NCBI GenBank assembly: GCA_002688775.1
Contig: NZDH01000003.1
Location: 29,820-66,583 of the forward strand
Source: Candidatus Woesearchaeota archaeon
Lineage (GTDB): Archaea; Nanobdellota; Nanobdellia; Woesearchaeales; GW2011-AR4
Reading direction: 5' to 3'
Length of the DNA: 36,764 nt
In this document: in pieces, positions 28,965 through 36,764 of the stretch
Position numbering within the stretch: the first letter of the stretch is position 1
Layout of the letters: every line of letters starts with the position of its first letter
Notes under the pieces: model-generated
Databases searched by the model: none
What the model was told of the DNA's origin: nothing
The model's input: only the letters and a program-made list of their open reading frames with translations
Translations under genes and position numbers: made by a program

Positions 28965-29049
28965 TTAATAAAACTATTTTAAAAAAACAACCAAAAACAA
29001 ACCTTTGTCTTTATTTAAACCTTTCTCAACCAAAAACCTTATATACCAC

Positions 29050-29070
29050 TTATATTATAATCTAATATAA
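29050..29070. promoter_or_regulatory. Inverted repeat, candidate operator of the RHH gene
   Basis: TTATATTA (29050-29057) and TAATATAA (29063-29070) are perfect 8-bp complements with a 5-base spacer, just before the RHH start codon at 29099. AT-rich sequence makes chance palindromes more likely. Confidence 0.45.
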
Positions 29071-29074
29071 TCCA

Positions 29075-29092
29075 TATAAAATATATTTTATA
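29075..29092. promoter_or_regulatory. Perfect 18-bp palindrome, candidate operator
   Basis: TATAAAATATATTTTATA is fully self-complementary and ends six bases before the RHH ATG. With the inverted repeat at 29050-29070 it would place a repressor dimer over the promoter and start codon. Confidence 0.5.
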
Positions 29093-29098
29093 ATATAA

Positions 29099-29233
29099 AT
29101 GAAAAGACCAATTAGCGCGACAATTGATACAGAATTGATCAATTGGATTGAAAAAGAGCTGCACAACAAAGAAAGATACAGGAATAAGTCTCACTTGATC
29201 GAGGTTGCGCTATACATACTAAAAAAGAGGTGA
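29099..29233 (+). CDS. Short ribbon-helix-helix DNA-binding protein
   Basis: This 44-residue protein (MKRPISATIDTEL...IEVALYILKKR) is the length of a minimal RHH domain. It has an N-terminal strand, PISATIDTEL, helix INWIEKELHNK, loop RYRNKSH, then helix LIEVALYILKKR. Such dimers bind palindromic operators, usually repressing their own promoter. The gene is preceded by two palindromes and ends three bases before the secretion ATPase, whose ribosome site (GAGGTGA) overlaps the RHH stop. The two genes are therefore one operon, and the RHH protein probably controls it. Confidence 0.8.
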   Translation: MKRPISATIDTELINWIEKELHNKERYRNKSHLIEVALYILKKR

Positions 29234-29236
29234 AGA

Positions 29237-31540
29237 ATGGCTTTATTCGGAGAAACCAAAAAACCCTTCAGCTATGATATCTTAAGGGAAGGTGAAGAAG
29301 TTATTTTGATGATTGACCTAGAGCAATATCCGCATATTCCTTCTTTAGAAGATGATCCTGTCTGCATGTCAAGGACTGTTGATATTCTCTCAGAAGCAGG
29401 GACTGTGACGAAGATTGTCTACAGTCAAAAAAGAAACTACGAATATGATTACAACCAGACTTTGATGGTCCAGGAAATAGCAAAATTACACACCCAGCTT
29501 ACAAAAAGAAGGGACATCTTTAGTTTTGGTAATTTGCTTGCAGATCCAAACTGCACAAAATGGGCTGCCAATTGGTATTCGAACATGCAAAACATCTCAG
29601 CTGATATGCTGAAAAGAGACCCAATCGGGGCTTATGTCGAGTTAAAAAGGACAATAAGGGATGAAAGGATAAGCATAGACAAGTCAACTGATCCAAACTA
29701 TTCAAAATGCGCCCAAAAATATATTGCAGTTTTGCATTATTTAATGCGCCTGATGGAAAAGACAAAGATAATATCAGCTGCAGCGCAATATATCGCCGGC
29801 TACAAGCTTGATGACCGCTCCATTTACAGGAAAATCTTCTCTCCTGACATAAGGCCGGACTTCATGTTCACAAAACTCATGGCCACTTATCCTATTGATG
29901 GGAATGAAATTGACAGTTATAACATAGACAAGAACACAGAAGTTACAATTTTTGAATTGCCGAACAATGTGCAATATTATTATCATTTGATTCCTCCTGA
30001 ATTCAAGCTGAGCGAGGAAAAATACGAGATTCTTGACACTGCAAGAAAAATAATGTCAGAGCACAAGCCAACAAGGCAGGAATTCATTGATCCTGAAAGG
30101 ATGAGGCAGGTTTTCTACAACATTGGCTCTGACCTAATCGAAGAGCTTGTGCAATACAGGAATCTGAGATTAACATCATCAGAGATTGACGAATTGACGA
30201 AGATCTTAGTAAGATACACAGTTGGATTTGGATTGATAGAAGTATTGCTGCAAGATGAAAAAGTACAGGACATAACAATAAACTCACCCATGGGAGAAGT
30301 CCCGATGTTCATTGTGCACCAGGATTACGCTGACTGCAGAACAAACATAGTGCCAACATCACCGGAAGCTGAATCATGGGCATCAAAGTTAAGATTAATT
30401 TCAGGCAGACCTTTGGATGAAGCAAACCCTATCCTTGACACAGAGCTTACCATTCCAGGAGCAAATGCAAGAATTGCAGTTGTCTCAGCCCCGTTAAACC
30501 CAACCGGATTGGCATTTGCATTCAGAAGACATAGGGACAAGCCATGGACTTTGCCTTTGTTCATACAAAACAAGATGCTTAATCCGTTGGCAGCTGGAAT
30601 TTTGAGTTTCTTGATTGACGGCTCAAGATCACTGTTAATAGCTGGAACAAGAAGCGCCGGCAAGACAAGTTTGTTAGGCGCAGTCTTGGTTGAATTAATG
30701 AGAAAATATCGTGTCTTGACTATTGAAGACACTTTAGAGCTGCCGACAAACTCACTAAGAAAATTAGGATACAACATCCAGTCAATGAAAGTAGCAGCTG
30801 CATTGACAAAAGGTAGTTCGGAAGTTCCGGCTGACGAAGGCATAAGGACAACATTAAGGATGGGTGATTCTGCTTTGATCATAGGGGAGATAAGGAGCAA
30901 AGAAGCTCTTGCCCTGTATGAAGCAATGCGTGTTGGCGCCTTAGCAAATGTAGTTGCAGGCACAATCCATGGTGATTCGCCATATGGGGTATTTGACCGA
31001 GTTGTCAATGACTTGCAAGTTCCGAAAACCAGCTTCAAGGCAACAGATGTCATAATTGTAACAAACCCAGTCAGAAGCGCAGATGGACTGCATCGCTGGA
31101 GAAGACTGACACAAATAACAGAAGTAAGAAAGCATTGGATTGATGATCCATTAGTTGAGAATGGTTTTGTTGATTTGATGAAATACAATTCAAAAAAAGA
31201 CAAGTTAGAAGTCGGAGAAAGCCTTATCAACGGCGACTCTGAAATTCTGAAGGCAATCGCCGGCAGCGTAAAGGAATGGGCTGGCAATTGGGATGCTGTC
31301 TGGGACAACATAACCCTAAGGGCAAAAACAAAAGAAGCGCTTGTTAATTTCGCGTCTAAGAACAAGATGCCAGAGCTCCTGGAAGCAGATTTTGTAATTC
31401 ACTGCAACGACCAGTTCCACAAGATATCTGAAAATATAAAGGAAGAAGTTGGCTCGCTTGACTCAAAAAGAATTTTCTTTGAATGGAACGAATGGCTCAA
31501 AAGGCATGTGAAGAAGCTAGGTTTTCATAAAAGGCTTTGA
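29237..31540 (+). CDS. Type II/IV secretion ATPase (FlaI/GspE2 family)
   Basis: The 767-residue protein has a long N-terminal region (about 1-290) and a C-terminal secretion ATPase core. The core shows GTRSAGKTSL as Walker A (470-479), the RVLTIEDTLELP Asp box, ALIIGEIRSKEALALYEAMR as Walker B (547-566), and the GTIHGDSPYGVFDRVV His box. This family powers assembly of archaella, pili and related filaments. It is translated from a strong ribosome site just after the RHH gene. The expected TadC/FlaJ membrane partner and pilins are not present in the window, and surface-protein genes follow instead. Confidence 0.9.
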   Translation: MALFGETKKPFSYDILREGEEVILMIDLEQYPHIPSLEDDPVCMSRTVDILSEAGTVTKIVYSQKRNYEYDYNQTLMVQEIAKLHTQLTKRRDIFSFGNLLADPNCTKWAANWYSNMQNISADMLKRDPIGAYVELKRTIRDERISIDKSTDPNYSKCAQKYIAVLHYLMRLMEKTKIISAAAQYIAGYKLDDRSIYRKIFSPDIRPDFMFTKLMATYPIDGNEIDSYNIDKNTEVTIFELPNNVQYYYHLIPPEFKLSEEKYEILDTARKIMSEHKPTRQEFIDPERMRQVFYNIGSDLIEELVQYRNLRLTSSEIDELTKILVRYTVGFGLIEVLLQDEKVQDITINSPMGEVPMFIVHQDYADCRTNIVPTSPEAESWASKLRLISGRPLDEANPILDTELTIPGANARIAVVSAPLNPTGLAFAFRRHRDKPWTLPLFIQNKMLNPLAAGILSFLIDGSRSLLIAGTRSAGKTSLLGAVLVELMRKYRVLTIEDTLELPTNSLRKLGYNIQSMKVAAALTKGSSEVPADEGIRTTLRMGDSALIIGEIRSKEALALYEAMRVGALANVVAGTIHGDSPYGVFDRVVNDLQVPKTSFKATDVIIVTNPVRSADGLHRWRRLTQITEVRKHWIDDPLVENGFVDLMKYNSKKDKLEVGESLINGDSEILKAIAGSVKEWAGNWDAVWDNITLRAKTKEALVNFASKNKMPELLEADFVIHCNDQFHKISENIKEEVGSLDSKRIFFEWNEWLKRHVKKLGFHKRL

Positions 31541-31581
31541 GTTTTACTTTTTTCTAGTTTAATCCTCAAAAAACCGCAAAC

Positions 31582-31590
31582 TTTAAATAT
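31582..31590 (+). promoter_or_regulatory. TATA box of the tandem-RHH operon
   Basis: TTTAAATAT lies about 40 bases before the ATG at 31629. The two GGTATACC sites fall just downstream, over the expected transcription start. Confidence 0.55.
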
Positions 31591-31598
31591 AAGTCTAT

Positions 31599-31626
31599 GG
31601 TATACCTTAGTATATCAAGGTATACC
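31599..31626. promoter_or_regulatory. Tandem GGTATACC operator
   Basis: Two perfect GGTATACC palindromes occur at 31599-31606 and 31619-31626, exactly 20 bases apart (about two helical turns), between the TATA box and the ATG at 31629. They probably bind the two-domain RHH-like protein encoded directly downstream. Confidence 0.65.
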
Positions 31627-31628
31627 TA

Positions 31629-31970
31629 ATGAAAAGAGAGATTACAACAATAAAACTTAGCAAAAGTACTGTTGGAATTCTTAATAAGTCAAAGATCCAT
31701 CCCAGGCAGCCCTATGAAGAAGTAATTCTAAGGTTAATTCCAAAAAAGCAGATGTCCGGAAACGGATTTAATCTGCCCTTGACAAAAAAAGACATCACGA
31801 CAATCAAGATCAGCAAAAATACTGTGCAGTTATTGAATAATCTAAAGATTCACCCTCGTCAATCTTACGAAGAAGTTGTTCTAAGGCTTTTATTGAAAAA
31901 CGAAAAAACAGGAAAAAGAGCTAGATTTGGAATTAATATAGAAAATGAATTCAAATTTAAGTATAGGTAA
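31629..31970 (+). CDS. Tandem-duplicated RHH-like DNA-binding protein
   Basis: The 113-residue protein contains two copies of one small domain. Residues about 1-40 (REITTIKLSKSTVGILNKSKIHPRQPYEEVILRLI) and about 53-90 (KDITTIKISKNTVQLLNNLKIHPRQSYEEVVLRLL) are alike at most positions, with a strand-helix-helix pattern as in RHH-type archaeal regulators. One chain could therefore act as a ready-made dimer. Its promoter carries two GGTATACC palindromes 20 bases apart, matching the two-domain design, so autoregulation is likely. It overlaps the start of the large surface-protein gene by 26 bases, so it is presumably that gene's regulator. Confidence 0.85.
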   Translation: MKREITTIKLSKSTVGILNKSKIHPRQPYEEVILRLIPKKQMSGNGFNLPLTKKDITTIKISKNTVQLLNNLKIHPRQSYEEVVLRLLLKNEKTGKRARFGINIENEFKFKYR

Positions 31971-33963
31971 ATCTGGAAGAGGAAAAAAAGTGGTATTCAG
32001 ATTATTGATTCTAATAATTGTATCACTTTTATTGGTTATTCAAGTAAATTCATTTACAACTAACAATAGTAAAAAAACGTTTGATTTCGATATCACTTCT
32101 GGAAAAAACACCAATATTTCAAGCTCTAACTTTAAGACCTATTCGGTACTGGGAGATATAACCGGAACTGTAACCTCTACAAACTATAAAACCGATTTAG
32201 GATTATTAAGAACTCTGCCTTATCTAGACGAGGAATCCTGCCAGACTAATTTAGAATGTGTAGGTGGATTTTGCTGCAGCAATGTCTGCAAAAGCTCAGC
32301 ATGTCCTACTGATGATGATTCCGGCAGTGGAAGTAGTTCAAGTTCTGGCGGGGGCGGCGGTGGAGGTGGTGGTTTCTTTGTCAAGAAAGTAGAAAGTTTC
32401 ACAGTAGACAAAGATGTTATCAAGGCAACAATTAAACAAAATGAAACATATGACACAATCATCTCCATTGAGAATGACGGCAGTGTATCATTGTCTTTTG
32501 ATGTGAATGTTTCTGATTTGGAAGGAATATTGTCGTTAAGCGAAACACAATTTACAATCTTGCGCAACGGTGTTAAGAACATAAGCGTTCAGATATCTGC
32601 ATCAGATAAAAGGCCAGATATATACACAGGCAACATTACGATAAAAGCCAGCAGCATAATAAAATCAATACCTGTTGTCGTGCAGATTCAAGCTGAGAAA
32701 GCATTGTTTGACTTGCAGATCAACATAACTTCTCAGTCAAAAAGGATATTCAAGAAAGATAATCTGGTTGCAAACCTGACTCTGATAAACTTAGGAGACC
32801 TCAAACCAATTGATGTCCTGCTATTGTATACTATACAGGATCTTGAAGGAAAAGAACTTGTATCAATCAATGAGACAGTCACTGTCGATGACAAGATTTC
32901 GCTAGTCAGGCAATTTAATCTGCCTCCAAATATTTCATTTGACACATACCTATTGCACACCCAGGTCATTTATGGCCTGGAAACTGCTTTTGCAGGAGAC
33001 ATATTCTTCGTCATAAAAGAACCTACATGCTTTGATAGCATAAAAAATCAGGATGAGGAAAAAACTGATTGTGGAGGTATATGTGAGCCATGCAAAAATG
33101 CATATGAAAAAACTTTTAGTCTTTTATCATTATTAATAAGCAAGTTCAAGGCATTGTTGATTGCAGTATTGATTCTCTTGATCATATTAGCCCTGCTGCT
33201 TTTCATAAAGAAAAACAAGGCAAGATTCCAAAGAAAACTCAAAGTAAGAGAAAAACAAGTAATACAGGAAAAAGTAGTAATAAAAGAAAAGATAGATGTG
33301 CAGAAAAAACAGGAAATACCAAAGATAGCAGAAACACCAAAGACGCAAACCAAGAAGAAACCAGAAATATCCACTGTTGAGCCAAGCAAAGAGATCAATA
33401 AACTGTTCACATTAGTTAATTCAGCATTGATAAGGGGCCATAAGGTCGAATACATAAGGAATGTATTATTGTCAAATGGGTTCCCAGAAAATATTTCAGA
33501 CAAGATAATCAAGCAGGCGATTTACAGGTCAAAGGTAATTGATGATTACATAGAAAAAGCATTAGATCAAGGGCACGAGATAGTGCAGATTGAAAAATCA
33601 TTATTAAAATCCGGCTGGTCCGAAAACGAGATTGACAGGCATTTGTCAAAATCAGTCAATGAAAGGTTTAACGAACCTATCAAAGGAAAAGATAATCTGT
33701 TTAGATTGATAAATTCAGCATTGATTAAAGGCCACAAAGCCGAATACATAAGGGATATTCTATTGTCCAACGGCTTGCCGAAAGATTTTGTGGACAAGAT
33801 AATAAGAAAAGCAATGCATAGACACAGGACGATAAGTGATTATATAGAAAAGTCATTGAATAAAGGACATAATCCAACTCAAATCAAGAAATTATTGCTA
33901 AAGTCTAGATGGCCTGAAAAGGAAATTGACCAGCATTTGTCAAAAGCAGTTGAAGGGTATTAG
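31945..33963 (+). CDS. Membrane-anchored surface protein with duplicated cytoplasmic domain
   Basis: The 672-residue protein has a signal segment (about 15-36), an extracellular part (about 37-395) and a transmembrane helix (about 402-421). The extracellular part has a short cysteine motif (CQTNLECVGGFCC), a nine-glycine linker (135-143), beta-sandwich-like domains with many N-x-S/T sites, and a CFDSIKNQDEEKTDCGGICEPC motif. Inside are a Lys/Glu-rich coiled region and two copies of a roughly 88-residue helical domain (484-573 and 582-670) sharing NSALI[RK]GHK[VA]EYIR. The gene overlaps the tandem-RHH gene. A sensor or surface-assembly role is possible, but no catalytic motif is seen. Confidence 0.8.
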   Translation: MNSNLSIGKSGRGKKVVFRLLILIIVSLLLVIQVNSFTTNNSKKTFDFDITSGKNTNISSSNFKTYSVLGDITGTVTSTNYKTDLGLLRTLPYLDEESCQTNLECVGGFCCSNVCKSSACPTDDDSGSGSSSSSGGGGGGGGGFFVKKVESFTVDKDVIKATIKQNETYDTIISIENDGSVSLSFDVNVSDLEGILSLSETQFTILRNGVKNISVQISASDKRPDIYTGNITIKASSIIKSIPVVVQIQAEKALFDLQINITSQSKRIFKKDNLVANLTLINLGDLKPIDVLLLYTIQDLEGKELVSINETVTVDDKISLVRQFNLPPNISFDTYLLHTQVIYGLETAFAGDIFFVIKEPTCFDSIKNQDEEKTDCGGICEPCKNAYEKTFSLLSLLISKFKALLIAVLILLIILALLLFIKKNKARFQRKLKVREKQVIQEKVVIKEKIDVQKKQEIPKIAETPKTQTKKKPEISTVEPSKEINKLFTLVNSALIRGHKVEYIRNVLLSNGFPENISDKIIKQAIYRSKVIDDYIEKALDQGHEIVQIEKSLLKSGWSENEIDRHLSKSVNERFNEPIKGKDNLFRLINSALIKGHKAEYIRDILLSNGLPKDFVDKIIRKAMHRHRTISDYIEKSLNKGHNPTQIKKLLLKSRWPEKEIDQHLSKAVEGY

Positions 33964-34062
33964 GTTTAACAGAGTTCTTCACCAAAAGCTTTATATATAA
34001 GTAAAATAGTTTATAGAATTAATATAAGTAATTTAGGTTATATTAGCTAAATATTTTAAAAA

Positions 34063-34260
34063 TTGCTTACTAAAAAAGAAAGGCAGATTCTGGAACTTCG
34101 CAAAAGAGGGCTTAAGCAAACACAGATAGCCTCAAAACTAAAGATTTCTCAGCCAGCAGTTTCAGCATTTGAAAGCAACGCCAAAAGAAAAATACGCGCT
34201 GCCAGGAAAATTATAGATTTTGTCAAAGAAATAGGTGGAATCAAAGACTATGAAGAATGA
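34063..34260 (+). CDS. Tfx-like helix-turn-helix regulator
   Basis: The 65-residue protein starts at TTG (34063), the only start that keeps the domain complete: MLTKKERQILELRKRGLKQTQIASKLKISQPAVSAFESNAKRKIRAARK. This is the Tfx-type HTH first described for a methanogen molybdenum-related regulator, here alone without a ligand domain. TATA candidates lie at about 33990-34003 and 34050-34057. Its end overlaps the next gene by 11 bases, making it the third small DNA-binding protein directly in front of a large secretion or surface gene. Confidence 0.8.
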   Translation: MLTKKERQILELRKRGLKQTQIASKLKISQPAVSAFESNAKRKIRAARKIIDFVKEIGGIKDYEE

Positions 34261-36352
34261 TTTAACTAAATCAACAAAAAGAAAGATATTTTCCTACTTT
34301 TCATTAGCTGCATTAATTTTGTCAATCTTCATATTATTAATCCCATTTATATTGGCAGCTCCAAACTCTATAAACGTACAGGGAAAATTAACAAATCCTT
34401 CAGGAACAATACAAACAGGAACTTTCAATTTCTCATTCAGGTTTTATGATAATTATACTGCTGGAACCAAGCTGCTTGAGAAGAATGTGACTTCAACAAC
34501 AGATGCAAGAGGTGTTTATGACATTATAATTCCAGATGTCAATCTCACTTTTAAGGATCAGCTTTACCTTGGTGTTGAAGTCAATACAGATGGTGAAATG
34601 TCACCTAGAGTTAACTTAACTAGCGTTCCTTATACTTTTAGGGCCAATACAAGTGAAGCTCTAACTCCAAACTCAAGCCATTTTGTGACTAACTTGAGTG
34701 TTAATGGCAATGTCACGATTGGTGATGGAACAACAACTTTGCAAATAACAACACAATTGTTTAATTTATCTGCTATTGGTGATTTGAATCTTAATGGAAC
34801 TGTAACTGCTTTTGCTTTTGTTGGCGATGGAAGCAGTTTGACTAATTTGCCAGCTGGAATTTCAAGTGTATGGAATTCTTCTGCAACGAATATTTATTTG
34901 AATGATAGCACTGGTAAGGTAGGGATTGGGACGGCTGCACCAGATGAAAAATTAGTGATTATGGGTAATCTAAGCGTTAACAATTCTGCTGCTGCTCTAA
35001 ATGCTACATTGTTTGTTGATTCGACTAATAGTAGAATCGGCATCGGGACGACGAGTCCGAGCAGTCTATTGCATATAGATGGAGGAGATATAAACTTTAG
35101 TAAAAGCGGAATCACTTATTTAACCACGCAAGCAACAACCTACCCAATGATGTTTTTAAAGGGTTACGACGGTGATTCTAGGGGGACTGGAAGAGTTGGT
35201 TTTTATGGGATGAGCGCCCTCATCTCAGAAAATGTCTACTTTGACAACACAAATTGGGTTCCAGATAATACTGATAATGGTCGGGCGATGTTACTTCTTC
35301 AAGATGGAATATTCTACTTCCAAACACAAGCCGCTGGAGAAGCGACAGGCATGAACAATGTAATGCGCATAACGAACGGCGGCAACGTCGGGATTGGAGA
35401 CACAGACCCAGATTTCGCTTTAGAGGTTGTAAGCAACTTTAGTGTTTCAAGCGCAGCAGGAAATGATGGAGACAAGTTTATTGTAGATGCTTCAGGCAAC
35501 GTCGGGATTGGATTAACAACACCAACAGCCAATCTAAATATTCATGATGAAGCTGCAACAAGCTTATCATTATTTAATATTTCAACAGGCGCAGGAACAA
35601 AATTTCATGTTGATAATACAGGAAATACTGAAATAAACGGATCAGTTATACTAGCCAATACAAAAGGGTTTAAAATCCGTAACAATGATGGAGATTCTGA
35701 TAACACATACATTCAGCGACCGCAGGATGATATTCTCTATATTGCTGCAGTGAACGGCACAGTTTTCAGGACAAGTTCTTCTGAAAATGAAAGGATGAGA
35801 ATCACCGCAGATACAGGCCACGTCGGCATCGGGACAACCACACCAGCCGAGGTATTAAGCGTAAGCGGCAATGTGAGCATAACAGGCACTAATTGCAGGG
35901 ATTCAGGAGGTCCTGCAACCTGCAACAATTTCGTCGACTTTGCAGAGTTGTTTCCTGCTTCTGAAGAAGTTGAATCCGGCGATATTGTCATCATTGATTT
36001 TGAGAATGAAGGCAAAGTCAAAAAATCAACAAGAGCCTATGACACTGCAGTTGCAGGAATTGTAAGCACACAGCCTGCAATTGTAATTGAAGGCAGCAGA
36101 ATAGTTGCAATGGGCAATACTTTCTTCCAGGAAAGCACTACGAAGCCAGCAATAGCACTAGCCGGACGAGTTCCTGTCAAAGTCACCAATGAGAATGGGA
36201 TGATAAAGGCTGGTGATTTGATAACAACATCAAGCAAAAAAGGGTATGGGATGAAATGTGAAAAAGCAATCAATTGTATCGGAGCTGTTGTCGGAGTTGC
36301 AATGCAAAACCAAAAACAAAGTAACGATTTGATTTTGGCAATGGTGAAATAA
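34250..36352 (+). CDS. Tail-fibre-like surface adhesin with GxVGIGTxxP repeats
   Basis: An in-frame GTG at 34235 exists; the ATG at 34250 is preferred, giving 700 residues. After a signal peptide (about 10-36) comes a module, NSINVQGKLTNPSGTIQTG to TSVPYTFRANT (about 38-135), found in bacterial and CPR surface proteins. Five tail-fibre-like G-x-[VI]-GIG-x-x-x-P repeats follow, with beta-rich spacers and many N-x-S/T sites. The C-terminal domain, DFAELFPASEEVESGDIVII to AMVK (about 560-700), also matches bacterial fibre proteins, beside the endosialidase-chaperone group. No autocleavage motif is identified. A second copy of the N-terminal module begins 45 bases downstream. Confidence 0.82.
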   Translation: MKNDLTKSTKRKIFSYFSLAALILSIFILLIPFILAAPNSINVQGKLTNPSGTIQTGTFNFSFRFYDNYTAGTKLLEKNVTSTTDARGVYDIIIPDVNLTFKDQLYLGVEVNTDGEMSPRVNLTSVPYTFRANTSEALTPNSSHFVTNLSVNGNVTIGDGTTTLQITTQLFNLSAIGDLNLNGTVTAFAFVGDGSSLTNLPAGISSVWNSSATNIYLNDSTGKVGIGTAAPDEKLVIMGNLSVNNSAAALNATLFVDSTNSRIGIGTTSPSSLLHIDGGDINFSKSGITYLTTQATTYPMMFLKGYDGDSRGTGRVGFYGMSALISENVYFDNTNWVPDNTDNGRAMLLLQDGIFYFQTQAAGEATGMNNVMRITNGGNVGIGDTDPDFALEVVSNFSVSSAAGNDGDKFIVDASGNVGIGLTTPTANLNIHDEAATSLSLFNISTGAGTKFHVDNTGNTEINGSVILANTKGFKIRNNDGDSDNTYIQRPQDDILYIAAVNGTVFRTSSSENERMRITADTGHVGIGTTTPAEVLSVSGNVSITGTNCRDSGGPATCNNFVDFAELFPASEEVESGDIVIIDFENEGKVKKSTRAYDTAVAGIVSTQPAIVIEGSRIVAMGNTFFQESTTKPAIALAGRVPVKVTNENGMIKAGDLITTSSKKGYGMKCEKAINCIGAVVGVAMQNQKQSNDLILAMVK
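34355..34653 (+). repeat. Fibre N-terminal module, copy 1
   Basis: Aligns without gaps to 36466-36764 (offset 2111). Differences are about a dozen bases, nearly all silent. Confidence 0.9.
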
Positions 36353-36396
36353 GTGGCAAATATCAAAACAAGCAATGAAGTGAACATACAAATCAA

Positions 36397-36764
36397 ATGA
36401 CAAAAAATAATTTTATGTATTTCGTTGTAATAATTATTTTCATTTTATCAATTTCATTAGTCATTGCAGCGCCGAACTCCATCAACGTACAGGGAAAACT
36501 AACAAATCCTTCAGGAACAATACAGGCAGGAACTTTCAATTTCTCATTCAGATTTTATGATAATTACACTGCTGGAACCAAGCTGCTTGAGAAGAATGTG
36601 ACTTCAACAACAGATGCAAGGGGAGTTTATGACATTATAATTCCAGATGTCAATCTCACTTTCAAAGATCAGCTTTACCTTGGTGTTGAAGTCAATACAG
36701 ATGGGGAGATGTCACCTAGAGTTAACTTAACTAGCGTTCCTTATACTTTTAGGGCCAATACAAG
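36397..36764 (+). CDS. Second tail-fibre-like surface protein, truncated by window end
   Basis: The ATG at 36397 opens MTKNNFMYFVVIIIFILSISLVIAAPNSINVQGK, a fresh signal peptide of unrelated sequence, followed by the same module as in the gene upstream. Over 99 codons after the signal peptide the two proteins differ by only one residue (T versus A), and most base differences are silent. The frame is open to the window edge (122 codons plus two bases). It is presumably another fibre with a different distal part. No small DNA-binding gene separates it from the upstream copy. Confidence 0.85.
   Translation, partial: MTKNNFMYFVVIIIFILSISLVIAAPNSINVQGKLTNPSGTIQAGTFNFSFRFYDNYTAGTKLLEKNVTSTTDARGVYDIIIPDVNLTFKDQLYLGVEVNTDGEMSPRVNLTSVPYTFRANT
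36466..36764 (+). repeat. Fibre N-terminal module, copy 2
   Basis: Gap-free match to 34355-34653, continuing to the window edge, so its true end is unknown. Confidence 0.9.

Follow-up and report, generated by a model that had tools for sequence, protein, structure and literature searches.

The window (the whole 36,764-nt stretch of DNA analysed here) spans positions 29,820–66,583 of contig NZDH01000003.1 in a metagenome assembly (MAG) of a Candidatus Woesearchaeota archaeon (GCA_002688775.1), a genome of 1.04 Mb that is 73% complete, and runs to the end of its contig (C2). DPANN archaea are for the most part uncultured and are believed to rely on contact with other cells; to our knowledge, hardly anything is described about the control of their attachment machinery. 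Towards its 3′ end the window holds three consecutive couplets on the forward strand, each comprising a gene for a small DNA-binding protein and a large gene coupled to it. This layout was proposed in a preliminary description of the sequence, whose coordinates and spacings we confirm: all six ORFs named there are present. Transmembrane (TM) segments are predicted throughout from hydropathy only.

The first couplet opens with RHH1, a putative ribbon-helix-helix (RHH) protein of 44 aa (29099–29233) carrying the conserved sequence KPISATI...YRNKSHLIE, followed after 3 bases by a 767-aa type IV pilus/archaellum-type assembly ATPase (29237–31540), which is T2SSE/FlaI-like and matches PF00437 at 52.8 bits (cutoff 24.9). 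Homologs of the ATPase occur in 145 of 147 related genomes, the named ones being mostly from Woesearchaeota. RHH1 lies within about 480 bp 5′ of the ATPase at 42 of 80 GTDB loci (43 of 81 with the window counted), a count that, like all counts of relatives given here, includes related species and does not represent independent events. It is present at all 20 loci with an ATPase identity of at least 69% and absent at about 37 of the 80, each below 69%. RHH1 itself is strongly conserved. Pfam RHH_1 matches 11 of 20 RHH1 members weakly (best E 0.0012) and does not match the window protein, and a PDB sequence search with the RHH1 profile returned spurious matches only, with no relative by sequence. 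At loci L106, L112, and L115 an MGR-type RHH (MGR[IV]N...) stands upstream of the ATPase in place of RHH1, in tandem in L106 and L112; this looks like replacement by a functional equivalent. Several ATPase homologs (G014:C22, G033:C20, G042:C1, G086:C21, G136:C12, G072:C29, and G096:C16) are open frames of 1263–1333 aa with an insertion near residue 500, a probable intein.

The second couplet begins with a 113-aa protein of two tandem DUF7557 domains, which are VapB/RHH antitoxin-like (31629–31970; PF24434 in two stretches, 42 bits, cutoff 25, with VAPB_antitox matching more weakly). Its gene overlaps by 26 bases that of a 672-aa membrane-anchored surface protein (31945–33963), predicted to comprise a signal/TM segment, a Cys-rich and Ig-like outside region, a TM segment, and cytoplasmic repeats. 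Since DUF7557 appears RHH/antitoxin-like, the three unrelated folds of the preliminary description would reduce to two fold classes, with two of the small proteins RHH-like. The structure model of the DUF7557 protein contains two helix-helix units at low confidence (mean pLDDT 60) and found no significant match among PDB structures; a PDB sequence search with the DUF7557 profile likewise gave spurious matches only. No toxin family matched the surface protein in family searches. Homologs of its N-terminal part sit behind DUF7557 in G011 and G004, and homologs with no DUF7557 upstream were found in G015:C58 and G026:C6. The G004 partner (L237, 4951–6558) has the N-terminal surface region in common and a very different, fibre-tail-like C-terminal part, which suggests that the surface genes may be modular.

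Scored against the DUF7557 domain profile, relatives split into a high-scoring and a low-scoring group. The high-scoring group (clade A; HPRQ[PSA]YEEVI) comprises 14 genomes. In 12 of them the DUF7557 gene overlaps, by 4–56 bp, a large gene that in most cases encodes a signal or TM segment; in the other two (G035 and G015) a single ORF fuses DUF7557 to a TM segment and an outside domain. The fused protein is 43% identical to the split partner of G052 over 61 residues of the TM/outside region, and fused and split surface partners are therefore homologous. Low-scoring members are paired with PemK-like toxins. At L282 (G268:C27), a 196-aa DUF7557 protein has four tandem domains, its gene overlapping that of a TM protein by 8 bp.

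The third couplet pairs a 65-aa Tfx-like mini helix-turn-helix (HTH) protein with a TTG start (34063–34260) and an exported fibre protein with VGIGTTTP repeats (34250–36352). The overlap is 11 bases when the fibre gene is read from ATG 34250, and 26 bases from GTG 34235, from which the frame is open. The HTH protein aligns to positions 7–62 of the 137-position TIGR00721 profile (E 9.4e-12; 45 bits, below the curated cutoff of 60.25), and also matches GerE and the structures PDB 8hnp (E 2e-6) and 1nr3. The fibre protein, with homologs in 27 of 147 genomes, is matched weakly by NF053851 (mosaic adhesive trimer; 21–23 bits, short of the cutoff of 60). A second fibre copy (36397–36764), present as its start only and cut by the contig end, has 92.7% DNA identity to 34325–34653. 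Among 34 distinct copies of the mini-HTH gene, 29 run into or directly adjoin (−26 to +3) an ORF predicted to carry a TM or signal segment; VGIGT repeats are visible in ten HTH-coupled ORFs, and several coupled proteins feature a cytoplasmic stretch of 40–95 residues N-terminal to the TM segment. The other five HTH genes are uncoupled or broken, one of them (L257) lying 5′ of a MoxR-like ATPase. Adjacency of regulator and surface gene, as proposed earlier, is thus retained in relatives, where these 29 HTH genes and every clade-A DUF7557 gene precede, or are fused to, a large and mostly exported or membrane gene.

The sequence beyond the fibre gene is provided by a second contig of the same assembly, C18, which overlaps C2, matching it over 33 kb and then continuing past the fibre gene. 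The common 33,120 bp contain six mismatches, four of them at 34738–34768, and the contigs diverge within the fibre gene itself (window 34738–34799; about 13120 in C18 (L007)). The two fibre proteins (705 vs. 812 aa) are identical over their first 188 aa, and the DNA beyond is unrelated; the pattern suggests that recombination has exchanged fibre tips, or that these are strain variants. In other genomes, too, contigs stop inside or just past the start of the fibre gene (G026:C12, G004:C17, G011:C9, and G006:C26; L207, L208, L224, and L233), as if fibre genes were repeated or strain-variable.

The next gene after the fibre gene on C18 encodes a polytopic membrane protein of 728 aa. The protein matched nothing in Pfam and nothing meaningful in NCBIfam, and profile comparison found no internal repeat. 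Its structural model (mean pLDDT 80) is similar to the cytoplasmic domains of OutF and EpsF, platform proteins of type II secretion (TM-score 0.70–0.71 by target, probability 0.99, Foldseek E ~1), and this comparison, together with its position, suggests that the protein resembles a T2SSF-type platform. With it, the locus holds the T2SSE ATPase and T2SSF-type platform expected of an archaeal type IV pilus/archaellum assembly system. The preliminary description had counted three surface genes, which holds for the second and third couplets; the ATPase of the first is a pilus/archaellum-type motor and not a surface protein. Further along C18, inspection by eye (L007/L008) identified a LAGLIDADG-like ORF directly 3′ of the platform gene (C18:37466–38209) and an RtcB-like gene apparently with an intein (C18:39969–42947).

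In most related GTDB loci the platform gene adjoins the ATPase. In 12 close loci the gap between them is 1–317 bp, with no such inserted genes, and on C18 the ATPase gene retains its 3′ end and the platform gene its AAAAAAAGAGG leader. These data indicate that the ancestral unit was RHH-ATPase-platform, into which the second and third couplets were inserted. The single designed array that the preliminary description implied, taken as one ancestral string of three units, is rejected, since relatives lack it. In G011 the order DUF7557-surface-(564-aa protein)-HTH-fibre recurs on a contig in which no ATPase was found, so both couplets can move independently of the ATPase. At L091, L123, L083, and L047, either the ATPase and platform are separated by other ORFs or the ATPase has no platform next to it, indicating that this gap takes insertions in several species.

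Each small gene is preceded by a predicted operator of its own. In unit 1, a TATA-like box on the forward strand (29037–29046; CCTTATATAC, with TTTAAATA at the same position in relatives) is followed by a predicted operator at 29050–29097, which comprises TTATATTATAATCTAATATAAT and then ATATAAAATATATTTTATAATATA (29074–29097), a conserved AT palindrome between the box and the ATG. In unit 2, the box (31582–31591, forward strand; TTTAAATATA, same position in relatives) precedes a predicted operator at 31599–31626 reading GGTATACC-TT-AGTATATC-AA-GGTATACC, i.e. 8-bp palindromes at 10-bp steps. In unit 3, the box (33990–33999, forward strand; TTTATATATA, in relatives GAAAGATTTAAATATAAG) adjoins two predicted dyads, TATAAGTAAAATAGTTTATA (33997–34016) and TATAAGTAATTTAGGTTATA (34023–34042), which together span 33997–34042. 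The motifs were first spotted in the same sequences in which they were later counted, a selection bias lessened, though not removed, by shuffling, by 427 control promoters, and by a held-out test. The unit 1 24-mer (up to three mismatches) is found in 20 of 42 RHH1 promoters (shuffles 0.06; control promoters 3/427), and the unit 3 dyad TATAAGT-N6-ACTTATA (up to two mismatches) in 21 of 33 HTH promoters (shuffles 0.33; control promoters 4/427). At distant loci (ATPase identity below 76%) the 24-mer is still present in 10 of 32 promoters, compared with 0.04 in shuffles; it was not found in the RHH1 promoters of L069, L074, L078, L079, L096, L108, and L113. For the held-out test, the HTH dyad TATAAGT-N6-ACTTATA was picked automatically from its own family only and then scored in other families, where 12 of 23 promoters contain it (shuffles 0.15, max 2). 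GTATAC units precede the start codon in all 14 clade-A promoters (24 units vs. 0.8 in shuffles), the fused genes included, with spacing peaks at exactly 10, 20, and 30 bp; a 10-bp step, one helical turn per unit, would fit small dimers lying side by side. A scan for sigma-70 promoters and terminators gave counts near the shuffled level and was uninformative.

These operators are specific to their families. The RHH1 operator occurs at a single locus in its own genome, and a role for RHH1 as a global regulator is rejected on that ground. A three-unit GTATAC array was found in 14 of 353 genomes scanned, and the inspected matches outside surface units all lie 5′ of DUF7557-type antitoxin genes, several visibly accompanied by a ParE/RelE-type toxin (one pair confirmed by Pfam). 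The array is thus an operator of the antitoxin family that the surface couplets have retained.

We put the probability at roughly three in four that each unit is a self-contained autoregulated couplet, repressing both itself and its partner gene. What supports this is the gene pairing, the overlaps, the conserved and specific operators, and the insertion. The first cistron would encode a small dimeric DNA-binding protein that binds the inverted-repeat or palindrome-array operator lying downstream of the TATA-like box and ahead of the start codon of its own gene, a position at which binding should block initiation. The bound regulator would repress, rather than activate, transcription of its own gene and of the presumably co-transcribed pilus-motor, surface-anchor, or fibre gene, such that output is held low and homeostatic and each unit may be released separately. 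Unit 1 would represent an RHH-ATPase-platform operon long established in Woesearchaeota, unit 2 a toxin-antitoxin repressor and operator now coupled to a surface gene instead of a toxin gene, and unit 3 a widespread mini-HTH-fibre couplet, with units 2 and 3 placed, in this genome, within the ATPase-platform gap. Self-regulation of each unit, as the preliminary description had suggested, is well supported in silico by conserved operators proper to each family, of which the RHH1 operator is unique in the genome and the GTATAC array family-specific; each surface structure is probably restrained by a brake of its own, built into its unit. The independent switching also suggested there has the separate operators as its sole basis: because the three differ, unit-by-unit switching would be possible, without implying bistability.

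A tentative extension, to which we give a minority weight, is that the recruited antitoxin-type repressor and operator govern the surface genes with the surface protein replacing the toxin as the modulator of repression; in some species one membrane-spanning polypeptide combines repressor and surface protein. On a rival account of similarly low probability, the feedback passes through the membrane: the surface protein would bind, or be fused to, the regulator and by its own state move it from or hold it on the operator, as a toxin does with its antitoxin. In its favour, the G035 and G015 ORFs each join DUF7557 to a TM segment and an outside domain, the TM/outside region being related to that of a split partner, and retain GTATAC operators; in addition, several HTH-coupled proteins begin with 40–95 cytoplasmic residues ahead of the TM segment. 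However, such fusions are confined to two genomes, and both surface proteins of the window start with a signal-like segment, leaving nearly no N-terminal cytoplasmic part. The two natural fusions make surface-protein feedback worth testing; were it true, the state of the cell surface, e.g. contact with a host cell, could act directly on transcription of its own surface gene.

It is improbable, in our estimate, that the small proteins instead act as activators, or control several targets, within a wider pilus regulon, with adjacency being a matter of ordinary operon structure. More than one promoter can be a target of Tfx itself and of certain other archaeal regulators, which counts in favour of such a regulon. 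PapB, moreover, acts as both activator and repressor (PMC12388093). Yet the RHH1 operator occurs once in the genome, the GTATAC array was found only 5′ of its own family, and all three operators occupy the site at which binding should hinder initiation. More doubtful still is a view of the small proteins as selfish or relict antitoxin-type genes, carried along beside surface genes in fast-changing islands with no role in control. DUF7557 relatives are indeed antitoxins with PemK or ParE toxins, surface islands are variable, and units 2 and 3 are an insertion; against this, start/stop overlaps with exported genes recur across many genera, fusions exist, operators are retained without any toxin, and RHH1 is strongly conserved. 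Chance adjacency in a small gene-dense genome is rejected: small-to-large same-strand neighbours do overlap or abut in 55 of 127 cases (43%) in the comparison ATPase loci, but just 12 of those 55 precede a large gene with an N-terminal TM segment (a feature of 225 of 750 large genes, 30%, in comparison loci), and all three pairings, sought in relatives as proposed, recur in other Woesearchaeota, with conservation across genera and matched operators that exclude chance.

If autoregulation holds, the couplets would supply named regulators, operators, and targets that are testable in vitro from synthetic DNA without culture. DUF7557 would, moreover, represent an antitoxin module that lost its toxin and turned into a controller of surface genes, with split and fused forms both visible.

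The preliminary description knew of no system with such a layout, yet parallels exist: small autoregulators are known from bacterial adhesin operons. PapB is a small DNA-binding regulator whose gene lies upstream of adhesin structural genes and which autoregulates its own promoter, with phase variation involving PapI, Lrp, and Dam methylation (PMC12388093). The couplets share gene position and the proposed self-control with PapB/FocB of enterobacterial fimbriae, without sequence relation: no PapB-type profile is among the matches listed for the three small proteins. Our literature search found no archaeal or antitoxin-derived precedent, an absence that is not proof. Archaeal type IV pilus/archaellum loci do encode transcription regulators, some with TM segments, e.g. 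the membrane-bound ArnR; the census of these regulators does not mention RHH proteins, and its text names no DPANN couplets (PMC4858521). ArnR-type regulators are separate proteins, unlike the fusions to a large surface protein in G035 and G015.

Closer likenesses lie in two other families. EnfR, of the Tfx family, represses as a dimer, and its binding site is a pseudo-palindrome located at about the start of the operon it controls, near the start codon (PMC10570040). The unit 3 protein shares a homologous N-terminal HTH with Tfx/EnfR (PDB 8hnp, 1nr3) and a palindromic site near the start codon, but at 65 aa it lacks the long C-terminal dimerization part of the 122–152-aa Tfx/EnfR structures, and its putative target is a fibre gene rather than metabolic genes. 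The closest counterpart of unit 2 is the type II toxin-antitoxin operon, formed by DUF7557/VapB-type antitoxins with ParE/RelE or PemK/MazF toxins. There, too, a DUF7557-type first gene overlaps or abuts the second, and ParE/RelE-type operons carry the same GTATAC-array operator 5′ of the start codon. The first gene of unit 2 belongs to a known antitoxin family (PF24434, above cutoff), and its promoter is predicted in silico to hold a palindromic operator array of the autoregulatory toxin-antitoxin type. In unit 2, however, a surface protein gene takes the place of the toxin gene, and surface units often have two DUF7557 domains (four in G268) or one that is fused to the surface protein. Unit 2 is therefore not a toxin-antitoxin system, its partner being no toxin, although its autorepressor would work like one.
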